Assembly (NCBI GenBank): GCA_036270875.1
Contig: DATBBR010000015.1
Span: 1 to 36,704, forward strand
Length of the DNA: 36,704 nt
From: Acidimicrobiales bacterium
GTDB taxonomy: Bacteria; Actinomycetota; Acidimicrobiia; Acidimicrobiales; AC-9
Direction of reading: 5' to 3'
Under the pieces are notes generated by a model. It had not been told where the DNA came from and ran no database searches. It was given only the letters and a program-made list of their open reading frames with translations. A program made the translations under genes and the position numbers. Positions 15,519 through 19,784 of the stretch are shown piece by piece (position 1 is the first letter of the stretch; each line of letters starts with the position of its first letter).

Positions 15519-18500
15519 TCAGCTGACTACGGCGTTGGGGCCGAGCAGGACCCGCACCTCGGCGACCACGCCGGATCGAGCGTCGACGTTGAGCTCGTCC
15601 GGAAGGCGGATCACCTTCTCCCCCACGTGCAAGAACACCGGCGACGGACCCGGGTGGTCGACCAACAACTGCTTGAGGCCCGCCAGCAGCGAGTCGGTGA
15701 GGCTGGGCAGCGGCAGACAGATCCGCAGCGGGGGCCCGTCGTCGGCGACCAGTTGCGGCCGGGTGAGACCCATGCACACCAGCTTGGGCTGGTCGTCGCG
15801 CGTGTCGATCCGCCCCTTGACACACACCGCCACGTCTTCCTCGAGGAGGGCGCCGAACTGCCGCATGGCGCCCGGGAACACGAAGGTCTCGATCGTGGCC
15901 TCCAGGTCCTCGAGAACGAAGGTGGCCATCTGGTCGCCGCTCTTGGTGTACTTGCGCACCAGGTTGGTGACGACACCCCCGACCACCCGAACCTCGGCGT
16001 CCCGATAGGCGTTCCCTCCCCCCGGGGCGACCTCTCGCAGCTCACCGATCGTGCAGTCGGTGTGCTTGGCCAGCGCCGCCTCCACGCCCATGAGCGGGTG
16101 GTCGCTCACGTAGAGGCCGAGCATCTCCTTCTCGAACGACAGCCGCTGGGCCTTGTCGAACTCGACCTCGGGGATGGGAACCCTGGAGTCGTCGAAACCC
16201 ACCGTCGGCCCGCCCGTCCCGCCGTCTGTCGCCGAGCCGTTACCGGCCCCCGTGTCGCCCATCGAGGCGAACAAGCTCATGATGCCGAGCTCGGCCTCAC
16301 GGCGGCGGGCCAGGGTGCGGTCGACCACCTGCTCGAACACGAGACACAAGCCCTTGCGCGGATGGCCGAGCGAGTCGAACGCCCCCGCCTTGATGAGGGA
16401 CTCGACGGTCCTCTTGTTGAGCACTGTCGGGTCCACCCGGTCGCAGAAGTCGTAGAAGTCCCGGTACGGACCGCCCCGGTCCCGCTCGGCCACGACCTGG
16501 GCAACGAGCCCCTCGCCGACGTTGCGGATGGCCGAGAGCCCGAAGGGGATGGCCCCCGGGCCATCCTCGGACCCTGGCTGCGCGGTGAAGTCCGACGCCG
16601 ACACGTTGACATCGGGGACGAGCACCTGGATGCGGTGGGCTCGGCAATCGCCGAGGTAGACCGCCGTACGGTCCTTGTCGTCCTTGACGCTGGTCAACAG
16701 GGCGGCCATGTACTCGACCGGGTAGTTGGCCTTGAGCCATGCCGTCTGGTAAGCGACGAGGCCGTACCCATAGGAGTGGCTCTTGTTGAAGGCGTAGTCG
16801 GCGAACGGCTCGATGAGATCGAAGAGCGCCGTGCCGAGGGCGGAGCCGTAACCAGTGCGCTCGCAGCCGGCCACGAACTGTTCCCGCTCAGCGGCGATGA
16901 GGGACCGGATCTTCTTGCCGCAGGCCTTTCGGAGGCGATCGGCCTCGGCCAGGCTGTAGCCCGCGAAGCGCTGGGCCACGCGCATCATGGACTCCTGGTA
17001 GATCATCAGCCCGTAGGTGTCCGCCAGGATGTCCTCGAGATCGGGGTGCAGGTAGGTGATGGGCTTGCGGCCGCACTTGCGGTCGGCGTAGTCGTTGTGC
17101 ATGTTGGCCGCCATCGGCCCCGGCCGGTAGAGGGCCACGAGGGCGGCGACGTCCTCGAACCGGCTGGGAGCGAGGGAGCGCATGAGCGCCCGCATCGGCG
17201 CGCCCTCCAGCTGAAAGACCCCGACCGACCGTCCCTGCTTGAGCATCGCGAAGGTCGCCTCGTCGTCGGGAGGGAGCGCATCGACGTCGGGGCGGTGGCC
17301 CTGGGAGCGCTCGACCAGATCGAGCGCCCGCTCGATCACGCTCAGGTTGCGCAGACCGAGGAAGTCCATCTTGAGCAGGCCCAGCTCCTCGACACCGTGC
17401 ATCTCGTACTGGGTGACGATCGGTGCGTCCTGGGCAGGAGTGGAGGGATCCGGCTTGCGCTGGATCGGGAGGTGCTCAGTCAGCGGCTCGCGAGTGATGA
17501 CCACGGCGGCCGCGTGGATGCCCGCCTGCTGGCGCAGCCCCTCCAGTCCCTTGGCCACGTCGATCACCTGACGGGCGTCGGGATCGCTCTGGTACATCTC
17601 CCGGAGCCCAGTCGCCATCTTGTACCCGTCGTCGTGCCCGTCCCGAGGCTCGAGGCAGGCGCCCAGCGGGGTGTCCCGACCCATGACGAGCGGGGGCATG
17701 GCCTTGGCAATGCGGTCCCCAACGGCGTAGGGATAGCCGAGCACCCGAGCGGCATCCCGAACCGCGGCCCGAGCCTTGATGGTCGAGAAGGTCACGATCT
17801 GGGCGACGTGGTCCCACCCATAGCGCTCGGCGGCGTAGCGGATCATCTCCCCCCGAGCCCGCTCGTCGAAGTCCATGTCGATGTCGGGCATCTCCCGGCG
17901 GCCGGGATTGAGGAAGCGCTCGAACAGCAGGTCGTGATGGATGGGATCGAGATCGACGATGCGCAGGCAGTAGGCGACGCAGCAGCCGGCGGCCGAGCCA
18001 CGGCCGGGCCCGACGCGGATGCCCGAAGAGCGGGCGTGGCGGATGAGATCCCACACGACGAGGAAGTAAGCCGAGAACCCCATGTCGGCGATGACGCCGA
18101 GCTCGAAGTCGAGCCGCTCGATCACCGCTGTCGGGATCGGCCGCCCGTAGCGTTCCTCGGCGCCGCTCATGCTCAGGTGACGCAGGTAAGCGGCGGTAGC
18201 GGCCTCGCCGCCGCCGGCGGAGAACTCCTCGGGCACGGGGAACTCGGGCAGCTTGGGCTTGCCGAACTCGATGTCGATCGCAGCCCGCTCGGCGATCCAG
18301 AGCGTGTTGTCGCAGGCCTCGGGCCAGTCGCGGAACAGCGTCCGCATCTCCGCCGCCGACTTCAGGTAGTGCTCCTCGCCCTCGAACCGGAACCGCTTGG
18401 GGTCGTCGCGCATCGCCCCGGTCTGGACGCAGAGGAGCGCATCGTGGGCCATGGCGTCGTCGCGGTGGGTGTAGTGGCTGTCGTTGGTGGCGAGCAGCGG

Positions 18501-19154
18501 TGCCCCCACATGGCGGGCGATGTCGATGAGGCTGGCGTTGGTCTTGCGCTGCAGCTCCAACCCGTGGTCCTGGAGCTCGACGAAGAGATGCTCGCGCCCG
18601 AAGATGTCCTGGAGTCGCCCGGTCAGCGCCGTGGCGCCGGCGAGGTCGCCCCGTTGCAGGGTCTGGAGGACGACACCGCCGAGGCATCCGGTGGTGGCGA
18701 TGACGCCGTCGTGGTGGCGCTCGAGCAGCTCCCAGTCGAGACGGGGTTGGTAGTAGTAGCCCTCGAGGTAGGCGGCGCTCGAGAGCTGCATGAGGTTGCG
18801 GTAGCCCAGGGTGGACTCGGCGAGGAGCGTGAGGTGGTAGTAGAGCTTCTCCCCTCCCTCCACGTCGCCGCCGGTGTCGTCCACCCGGCCCCGCCGCACC
18901 GGTCGCTCGTGGCGGCTGGTGGCCGCCATGTAGGCCTCGATGCCAACGATGGGGACGATCCCCTGGGACTGGCACTCCTTGTAGAAGTCGAGGACGCCGT
19001 ACATGTTGCCGTGGTCGGTGATGGCCAGGGCCGGCTGCCCGTCGGCCGCCGCCGCCGCCACCAGGTCCTTCACCCGGGCAGCCCCGTCGAGCATGGAGAA
19101 CTCGGTGTGCACGTGAAGGTGGGCGAACGAGTCCCTTCCAGCTCCGCCCGCCAC
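15519..19154 (-). CDS. dnaE: DNA polymerase III alpha subunit
   Basis: Catalytic subunit of the replicative polymerase. With GTG 19154 it has 1211 residues. The PHP domain opens with FAHLHVHTEFSMLDGAARVKDL, and H12, H14 and H16 are kept, so proofreading or metal-binding activity of the DnaE1-type PHP domain is plausible. The palm carries GPGRGSAAG and the acidic triad D424, D426, D428 in PDIDMDFDE. The DFLGLRNLSVIERA, helix-hairpin-helix and OB-fold regions (VRVVGGVVTNL, ATFVLEDLEA) follow. The frame is open to 19259, but GTG 19154 has a strong GAGGAGG site and gives the family N-terminus. A DnaA-box palindrome lies 27 bp upstream. Confidence 0.96.
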   Translation of the reverse strand: MAGGAGRDSFAHLHVHTEFSMLDGAARVKDLVAAAAADGQPALAITDHGNMYGVLDFYKECQSQGIVPIVGIEAYMAATSRHERPVRRGRVDDTGGDVEGGEKLYYHLTLLAESTLGYRNLMQLSSAAYLEGYYYQPRLDWELLERHHDGVIATTGCLGGVVLQTLQRGDLAGATALTGRLQDIFGREHLFVELQDHGLELQRKTNASLIDIARHVGAPLLATNDSHYTHRDDAMAHDALLCVQTGAMRDDPKRFRFEGEEHYLKSAAEMRTLFRDWPEACDNTLWIAERAAIDIEFGKPKLPEFPVPEEFSAGGGEAATAAYLRHLSMSGAEERYGRPIPTAVIERLDFELGVIADMGFSAYFLVVWDLIRHARSSGIRVGPGRGSAAGCCVAYCLRIVDLDPIHHDLLFERFLNPGRREMPDIDMDFDERARGEMIRYAAERYGWDHVAQIVTFSTIKARAAVRDAARVLGYPYAVGDRIAKAMPPLVMGRDTPLGACLEPRDGHDDGYKMATGLREMYQSDPDARQVIDVAKGLEGLRQQAGIHAAAVVITREPLTEHLPIQRKPDPSTPAQDAPIVTQYEMHGVEELGLLKMDFLGLRNLSVIERALDLVERSQGHRPDVDALPPDDEATFAMLKQGRSVGVFQLEGAPMRALMRSLAPSRFEDVAALVALYRPGPMAANMHNDYADRKCGRKPITYLHPDLEDILADTYGLMIYQESMMRVAQRFAGYSLAEADRLRKACGKKIRSLIAAEREQFVAGCERTGYGSALGTALFDLIEPFADYAFNKSHSYGYGLVAYQTAWLKANYPVEYMAALLTSVKDDKDRTAVYLGDCRAHRIQVLVPDVNVSASDFTAQPGSEDGPGAIPFGLSAIRNVGEGLVAQVVAERDRGGPYRDFYDFCDRVDPTVLNKRTVESLIKAGAFDSLGHPRKGLCLVFEQVVDRTLARRREAELGIMSLFASMGDTGAGNGSATDGGTGGPTVGFDDSRVPIPEVEFDKAQRLSFEKEMLGLYVSDHPLMGVEAALAKHTDCTIGELREVAPGGGNAYRDAEVRVVGGVVTNLVRKYTKSGDQMATFVLEDLEATIETFVFPGAMRQFGALLEEDVAVCVKGRIDTRDDQPKLVCMGLTRPQLVADDGPPLRICLPLPSLTDSLLAGLKQLLVDHPGPSPVFLHVGEKVIRLPDELNVDARSGVVAEVRVLLGPNAVVS

Positions 19155-19179
19155 GTGCGCCTCCTCGACTCGGGCCCCG

Positions 19180-19201
19180 TCGTCCACAGCCCTGTGGACA
19201 A
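19180..19201. promoter_or_regulatory. Inverted DnaA-box pair upstream of dnaE
   Basis: On the minus strand TTGTCCACA (19193-19201) is a perfect actinobacterial DnaA box. On the plus strand TCGTCCACA (19180-19188) is one mismatch away. They face each other with a 4-nt spacer and contain a perfect 8+8 palindrome, GTCCACAG-CC-CTGTGGAC (19182-19199). Confidence 0.65.
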
Positions 19202-19207
19202 GAGTTA
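19202..19207 (-). promoter_or_regulatory. Possible -10 hexamer TAACTC of dnaE
   Basis: TAACTC directly precedes the DnaA-box palindrome on the minus strand, so a transcript start would fall inside the palindrome. No convincing -35 is visible. The assignment is tentative. Confidence 0.3.
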
Positions 19208-19268
19208 CATCGCTGTCATTCACCCTACCGCTTTTCCAGGCGGCTTCGCCGCCCCGCACGAGGTGGCG

Positions 19269-19784
19269 TCAGAGGTAGGTGCCAGGGCGAGAGCCCGCGG
19301 GCTCCTCGCCGGCGGGCAGCTGGCGCCGGCGCATGTCCTCCAGCTGCGAGCGGGCGTTCATCTGCTGGGCGAACAGGGTCGCCTGGATGCCCTGGAACAG
19401 TCCTTCCAGCCAGCCGACCAGCTGGGCCTGGGCGATCCGAAGCTCGGCTTCGCTCGGCGTGGTGGCCTCCAACGGAAGCGAGATCCGGTCCAGCTCGGCG
19501 GCCAGGTCGGGCGAGAGCCCGTCGGACAGCTCGCGGATCGAGGTCTCGTAGATCTCCCGCAGACGTGTCCGGCTCTTCTCGTCCAAGGGGGCCTGGCGGA
19601 CCTCGTCGAGCAGCTGGCGGGTCATCGAGCCGATGCGCATGACCTTGGCCGGCTGGGCGACGGTCTCGGTCGGCTCGACGGCGCCGCCGGCTCCGGCCTG
19701 AGACTCGGGGGTGGCCGCGCTGCCGCCGTCGGGGCCGGGCACGATGACGACGTTCGGCGGACGGTCGGGTGTGTCGGGAGCCAT
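19269..19784 (-). CDS. bpa: Bacterial proteasome activator Bpa (PafE)
   Basis: Ring-forming, ATP-independent activator that opens the 20S proteasome gate and delivers unfolded proteins. The 171-residue protein has the family core: LLDEVRQAPLDEKSRTRLREIY, ELSDGLSPDLAAELDRISLP, and AELRIAQAQLVGWLEGLFQGIQ. It ends in GTYL, the HbYX-like gate-opening tail (GQYL in mycobacteria), with the tyrosine and leucine kept. The first 45 residues are disordered. ATG 19784 has an AAGGA site 6 nt away, and the gene starts 19 bp after the phosphatase stop, so it is probably the second gene of that unit. Its presence implies a 20S proteasome elsewhere in the genome. Confidence 0.92.
   Translation of the reverse strand: MAPDTPDRPPNVVIVPGPDGGSAATPESQAGAGGAVEPTETVAQPAKVMRIGSMTRQLLDEVRQAPLDEKSRTRLREIYETSIRELSDGLSPDLAAELDRISLPLEATTPSEAELRIAQAQLVGWLEGLFQGIQATLFAQQMNARSQLEDMRRRQLPAGEEPAGSRPGTYL

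Follow-up and report, generated by a model that had tools for sequence, protein, structure and literature searches.

Face-to-face DnaA boxes and an adjoining palindrome upstream of dnaE in an Acidimicrobiales bacterium and its relatives

The gene of the replicative DNA polymerase, dnaE, of an Acidimicrobiales bacterium is preceded by two DnaA boxes that lie face to face, and the array of such boxes upstream of dnaE is conserved among its relatives far beyond chance. The palindrome that the two boxes form is probably a site in the dnaE leader at which DnaA tunes transcription of the gene, together with a putative protein that would bind a second, adjoining palindrome, referred to here as motif2. 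The stretch of DNA that was analysed (the window, 36,704 nucleotides) corresponds to contig C15 of a draft genome of 3.0 Mb in 155 contigs. Read on the minus strand, which carries dnaE, positions 19180–19201 are TTGTCCACA-GGGC-TGTGGACGA, which corresponds on the plus strand to TCGTCCACA (19180–19188), GCCC (19189–19192) and TGTGGACAA (19193–19201). This direct reading bears out what a preliminary description of the region had claimed for the pair, namely facing boxes with a 4-nt spacer and a perfect 8+8 palindrome, the latter being GTCCACAG-CC-CTGTGGAC at 19182–19199.

The dnaE product scores 1328 bits against the model NF004226 (cut-off 1002) and contains the PHP, DNA_pol3_alpha, finger and HHH_6 domains. 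We take it to be the replicative form of the polymerase because its score of 594 bits against an error-prone polymerase model stays below the cut-off of 939, and because a second dnaE-like match, 40% identical, is present on contig C57 of the same draft genome. A longer dnaE frame, starting from a GTG at 19223 or 19259, is open in the genome G002, but stops interrupt it in G001, a genome of the same genus; because of these stops the start listed in Table 1 is preferred and the boxes are treated as part of the leader. Between the upstream gene, which encodes the bacterial proteasome activator Bpa, and dnaE there follow one another the −10-like hexamer, motif2, the two boxes, the Shine-Dalgarno-like sequence and the GTG start codon. 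From the position of the −10-like TAGGGT, the dnaE transcript would be expected to start at about 19213–19216; no match to a sigma-70 −35/−10 consensus was found in the region of this site. The pair had been described as overlapping the expected transcript start, which has to be corrected, as the boxes lie some 12–36 nt downstream of the start placed here, in the leader. An inverted repeat without a run of T, GGCGGC-GAA-GCCGCC (19239–19253, minus strand), is found between the Bpa stop codon and the −10-like element, and no terminator-like site was called at it.

Table 1. Positions of the features in and around the dnaE upstream region (window coordinates unless a locus is named)
Feature	Position	Strand	Remarks
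dnaE, replicative DNA polymerase III alpha	15519..19154	(-)	1211 aa; GTG start 19152-19154
Shine-Dalgarno-like AGGAGG of dnaE	19160..19165	(-)	From sequence; in all three genus genomes examined
DnaA box II, TCGTCCACA	19180..19188	(+)	From sequence; faces box I over the 4-nt gap 19189-19192
DnaA box I, TTGTCCACA	19193..19201	(-)	From sequence; commonest box counted around dnaA in the order
Motif2, AATGACA-GCGA-TGTAACT	19203..19220	(-)	3 mismatches to the consensus AATCACA-N4-TGTGATT; lies across the inferred transcript start
-10-like hexamer TAGGGT (TANNNT)	19222..19227	(-)	From sequence; TANNNT recurrent before motif2
Upstream gene, bacterial proteasome activator (Bpa)	19269..19784	(-)	PF10759, 210 bits
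Motif2 in relatives	L182 1201-1220; L183 1201-1220; L108 1501-1520; L120 1501-1520		
Motif2 in relatives (L161, L187, L190, L163)			

With up to three mismatches, the 22-mer spanning both boxes has an expected count of 0.01 in the window, where it is found once, at the dnaE pair; this is also its sole match in the whole draft genome. Single DnaA boxes show no enrichment in the window (12 matches, 18.6 expected). The shorter pattern TCCACAG-N0-5-CTGTGGA occurs at two places in the draft genome, the dnaE pair and a site on contig C65, and its reversed-pattern control at none. A dnaE-like match was present in 98 of the 99 genomes compared, the window's own included; G038, G064 and G069, for which only a weaker match of the second-dnaE type was listed, were left out, and the order-level set comprises 95 dnaE upstream regions (30 loci and 65 further ones, again with the window's). 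Facing boxes are found just before dnaE in all three genomes of the genus that were examined. Of the 95 regions, 42 have TCCACAG or CTGTGGA within 220 nt, compared with 2.96 in dinucleotide-preserving shuffles, and 29 have both orientations, compared with 0.06; a search for the pair upstream of dnaE in relatives, which the preliminary description had proposed, thus finds facing boxes kept far beyond chance. The 6-mer core box is seen in 46 of these regions (33 of 60 families) and a facing pair with a gap of 2–6 nt in 26 (21 of 60 families), in leaders that otherwise look diverged by eye. The exact 22-bp palindrome was considered as the conserved unit and rejected: the spacing varies, with a close gap of 2–6 nt, and the form with exactly 4 nt (up to two mismatches) occurs in three of the 99 genomes, at dnaE only in the window. 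In a set of 64 named Acidimicrobiia-like dnaE loci, some of them from the same genomes, a core box is seen in 17, a facing pair in 6 and motif2 in 32.

For the layout of the arrays, 193 regions upstream of dnaE were examined, no two of them with a 40-mer in common; a core box is present in 64. With F and R denoting the two orientations, the orders are FR (23 regions), FRR (16), F (9), FF (4), FFR (3), R (3), FFF (2) and four others found once each, and R followed by F within 60 nt is seen in none of the 64. The gap between F and R is 2–6 nt in 31 of 45 cases and 14–17 nt in 13 more, and the step from R to R is 11–13 nt in 16 of 20 and 11–14 nt in 17 of 20. The boxes extend on their 5′ side as DnaA boxes do: among the 142 core-containing 9-mers, 97 begin with T and 128 have T or C as their second letter. 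The commonest of them is TCGTCCACA (29 of 142). Around dnaA, in 30 loci, the forms T[TC][GAC]TCCACA are represented by TTGTCCACA (15), TTATCCACA (10) and TCATCCACA (8), and more rarely by TCGTCCACA (5), TTCTCCACA (5) and TCCTCCACA (3). Judged as DnaA boxes (9-mers of the TTWTNCACA class), boxes I and II both match the 9-mers of the dnaA region in their lineage. Their placement at a promoter and leader, and their conservation there, are as at DnaA-regulated promoters, though 49 of the 95 regions are without a core box.

Motif2, which does not figure in the preliminary description, adjoins the DnaA boxes and is more widespread than they are. With up to three mismatches it is found in 60 of the 95 regions and 39 of the 60 families (about 0.4 of 95 regions expected from shuffles), and together with a core box in 39 regions. 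In 40 of the 60 regions, compared with 0.7 in shifted windows, the hexamer TANNNT falls within the 13 nt that precede motif2, and owing to this regularity motif2 is placed at the inferred transcript start or directly behind it. Outside the order, among the best-scoring 20 of the 112 phylum genomes in which dnaE was matched (the 20 include three of the same class), motif2 is present in 11 and a box in 3; in 16 more distant named dnaE loci the counts are two and none, respectively. Matches to motif2 near lexA (in one genome) and near Metallophos (SbcD-like), PD-(D/E)XK (RecB-like) and NurA-like genes raised the idea that it is a LexA box, which was rejected: in 30 lexA loci, examined out of 92 genomes with a match, CGAAC-N4-GTTCG (up to one mismatch) is upstream of lexA in all 30 and motif2 (up to four mismatches) in one. 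To our knowledge, none of the sites of CRP, Rex, NrdR, BldD, MtrA or WhiA seemed to fit motif2 either. In several of the 30 lexA loci (L133, L135, L137, L150, L152 and L158), a block resembling GGGGGTGTGACA was noticed by eye close to the start of the neighbouring gene that diverges from lexA. Among the matches listed, motif2 also precedes smc (two loci, one family), WhiB-like genes (three loci, one by Pfam and two by eye), ribonucleotide reductase, CTP synthase, a sigma factor and a Metallophos (SbcD-like) gene, and about ten other listed matches fall inside genes according to simple gene calls; the reversed control gave none, with the proviso that its composition is rare. A replication or cell-cycle regulon marked by motif2 is possible, and these matches are suggestive only.

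Counted genome-wide, as had also been proposed, exact tight pairs occur at 54 places in the 99 genomes and the reversed pattern at 12, so that there are not many random pairs; assigned by hand, 21 of the 54 lie before dnaE, 7 before dnaA, 13 at a thiolase/crgA site (a class whose flanks hold a thiolase gene, crgA or a small gene that is their usual neighbour) and the remaining 13 at other places. A three-box form, in which the facing pair is followed by a further box placed in tandem to the second, is found at 69 places in the same genomes and at none in the reversed control: 34 upstream of dnaA, 7 upstream of dnaE and 28 unassigned, 24 of the last in genomes outside the dnaA search. In the phylum (Actinomycetota), 79 of 149 genomes have this form anywhere in the genome, and one the reversed control. 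Upstream of dnaA the gap is 2 or 3 and the step 12 in 30 of the 34 cases, and the seven dnaE places are looser (gap 2–6, R–R step 11–14). The form stands directly upstream of dnaA at, for example, L376 (from 47) and L377 (from 1470); dnaA was searched for in the window's own draft genome and not found. Behind dnaA, a block like TTGTCCACAATCCACAGCCCTTATTACTA was seen by eye in about a dozen of 30 loci (L224–L252), which may represent a DnaA box and an unwinding element.

The other pair of the window's genome (G000:C65:6883, seen in L366 around 1484 and in L422) is a triad with a gap of 3 and a step of 12, followed by motif2. It is intergenic, behind a thiolase gene, and is not regarded as a promoter in this genome because it sits between converging 3′ ends, the other being that of crgA. 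The corresponding site was examined in the best-scoring 30 loci of 30 genomes, of which one was dropped as it has no recognisable gene end and two have little 3′ sequence; [TC]CC[AC]CA, a gap of 2–4, TG[TG]GG[AG], N6 and [TC]G[TG]GG[AG], with motif2 (up to four mismatches) at most 3 nt further on, are found in 10 of 29 loci, with a gap of 3 in nine of the ten and a step of 12 that is fixed by the search pattern. Exact boxes together with motif2 are present in 4 of the 29. The order of the elements differs between the two kinds of place, with motif2 next to the first of the facing boxes at dnaE and next to the third box at the thiolase site. The repeated pairing of motif2 with the boxes at unlinked places argues for a functional unit. 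In G035 (L104), crgA starts 46 nt after the palindrome of the thiolase site, and this copy could be a promoter element.

In the reading that we consider probable, DnaA would bind the facing boxes in the dnaE 5′ leader, and in many relatives also a further box, and the leader-bound DnaA would set how much of the transcription from the promoter just upstream reaches dnaE, while a putative second protein would bind the motif2 palindrome on the transcript start. DNA-bound DnaA is a roadblock to RNA polymerase in E. coli. At dnaE it would most likely act likewise, as a repressor or roadblock that hinders RNA polymerase when free DnaA is plentiful; at other DnaA levels it may instead stabilise RNA polymerase, as described for nrdAB (PMC8203912). 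Given the similar layout upstream of dnaA, the two genes would be tuned together, rising and falling around replication initiation. Points against a role of DnaA are that the window has only two boxes, that about half of the order's regions have none, that three boxes are spaced more loosely at dnaE than upstream of dnaA, that dnaA was not found in the window's own draft genome, and that the reversed pair pattern does occur, at its 12 places. The earlier proposal that DnaA tunes dnaE keeps, with this, the identity of the boxes and gains a conserved array, and it loses the fixed 4-nt spacer and the placement on the start site.

Several systems offer precedents. According to the available text of a review, DnaA regulates the replication genes dnaA, dnaN, nrdAB and polA, the Caulobacter DnaA regulon includes dnaQ and dnaB, and autoregulation at dnaA promoters is described for E. 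coli, Bacillus, Streptomyces and mycobacteria (PMC8203912). The case at hand resembles dnaA autoregulation in having boxes at a promoter or leader, and the dnaE array is close to the one that this order has upstream of dnaA, mostly F-2/3-R with a step of 12; the case differs in its target, in its looser spacing and in the extra palindrome on the start site. In E. coli, chromatin immunoprecipitation points to a preference of DnaA for close box pairs 2–3 bp apart, modelled as tandem, with such double boxes at polA, nrdA, purH and mutH (PMC11317965). Those and the window's pair are alike as close pairs at replication or nucleotide genes, whereas the window's pair is inverted, with a gap of 4, and does not have the tandem arrangement at 2–3 bp. 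Nearest in target is Borrelia burgdorferi, whose DnaA binds the dnaE 5′ region, with one potential box, in mobility-shift assays in vitro, and activates dnaX-ebfC in vitro via the 5′ UTR (PMC9879097). Common to both are a DnaA site 5′ of dnaE, predicted in the present case, and an action through the 5′ leader, shown there at dnaX-ebfC and proposed here for dnaE. Borrelia differs in its phylum and in the one potential box at dnaE, where the available text of that report describes binding without evidence of regulation (PMC9879097). The main texts of the review and of the E. coli immunoprecipitation study contain no occurrence of dnaE, and a literature search, covering mainly openly licensed papers, turned up no paper describing DnaA boxes at dnaE in Actinomycetota. 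The statement that no such arrangement at dnaE was known holds in this sense for Actinomycetota and has to be qualified by the Borrelia binding; what appears new is the conserved array of facing boxes before the dnaE of Acidimicrobiia, together with its motif2 partner site, and the idea of DnaA at dnaE has precedent.

The arrays also bear comparison with the E. coli DARS elements, in which box I is opposite to boxes II and III, as described in papers that treat E. coli and related gamma-proteobacteria (PMC5742627, PMC8682772). Measured from NC_000913.3, the cores of both DARS1 and DARS2 are F-5-R with an R–R step of 12, and they share with the arrays discussed here the facing 3′ ends and the opposite box I, as well as the step of 12 with most arrays upstream of dnaA; the likeness of the dnaE arrays to them consists in orientation and rough spacing. 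An element of the DARS or datA type, which would change the nucleotide state of DnaA or titrate it instead of, or besides, regulating dnaE, draws further support from the 16 dnaE arrays of F-R-R order and from the thiolase-site triads with motif2, which in the window's genome stand in a non-promoter position. We nevertheless consider it unlikely at dnaE, where the spacing is loose, with gaps of 2–6 against the 5 of DARS, and where the arrays lie downstream of a conserved −10-like element, in the leader of a gene, DARS being DnaA-recycling sites. The IHF and Fis sites that DARS2 also needs, according to the available text (PMC8682772), were not identified at dnaE, and the thiolase-site copy before crgA in G035 could itself serve a promoter. 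The window's array, with two boxes instead of three and a gap of 4 instead of 5, is not classed as DARS because the third box is missing. The thiolase–crgA triad is a candidate for a locus of the DARS/datA type.

The palindrome might alternatively act in the RNA, as a leader hairpin in attenuation or translation control of dnaE, and a 32-nt piece of the leader is indeed more stable than all of 200 shuffles (z −4.0). Such folding is expected of any inverted repeat, and the 77-nt leader is no stabler than its shuffles (z 0.29). Among the 30 regions that have motif2 as well as an F/R pair, with one change allowed per arm, the arms are perfect in 19, only the R arm is changed in 10 and one shows compensating changes, so that boxes of unequal strength fit better than a kept helix; a hairpin also fails to account for third boxes in tandem and for the occurrence of the same pairs both upstream of dnaA and at the converging intergenic site, and it is quite unlikely to be the main role of the palindrome. 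The G after CACA is often kept as well, to give TCCACAG/CTGTGGA by eye, which would suit another protein with a preference for such palindromes. That protein would have to prefer the very 9-mers found around dnaA in the same genomes, and a three-box form that, where checked, is chiefly upstream of dnaA, and we hold its involvement to be very unlikely. Chance, or descent without function, would account for the roughly half of the relatives that have no boxes at dnaE. It is highly improbable in view of the shuffle and reversed-pattern controls and of boxes in more than half, and facing pairs in about a third, of the families, in leaders that have otherwise drifted apart to the eye.

The probable reading, DnaA control of dnaE through its leader, can be extended to a composite control module of Acidimicrobiales, and perhaps of other deep Actinomycetota, that would combine a DARS-core-like array with a palindrome for a putative DnaA partner; at dnaE it would couple polymerase supply to the state of DnaA, and at the thiolase–crgA site it would form a locus of DnaA recycling or titration. 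This extension is offered tentatively, and we regard it as doubtful. Were the thiolase–crgA triad to act in this manner, it would be a candidate for a locus of the DARS/datA type beyond the Proteobacteria, and the motif2 palindrome points to a further regulator of replication or the cell cycle. Beyond a few models, little is known of how bacteria match the supply of replisomes to initiation, and a conserved DnaA array on the gene of the replicative polymerase would make the link between supply and initiation directly testable.
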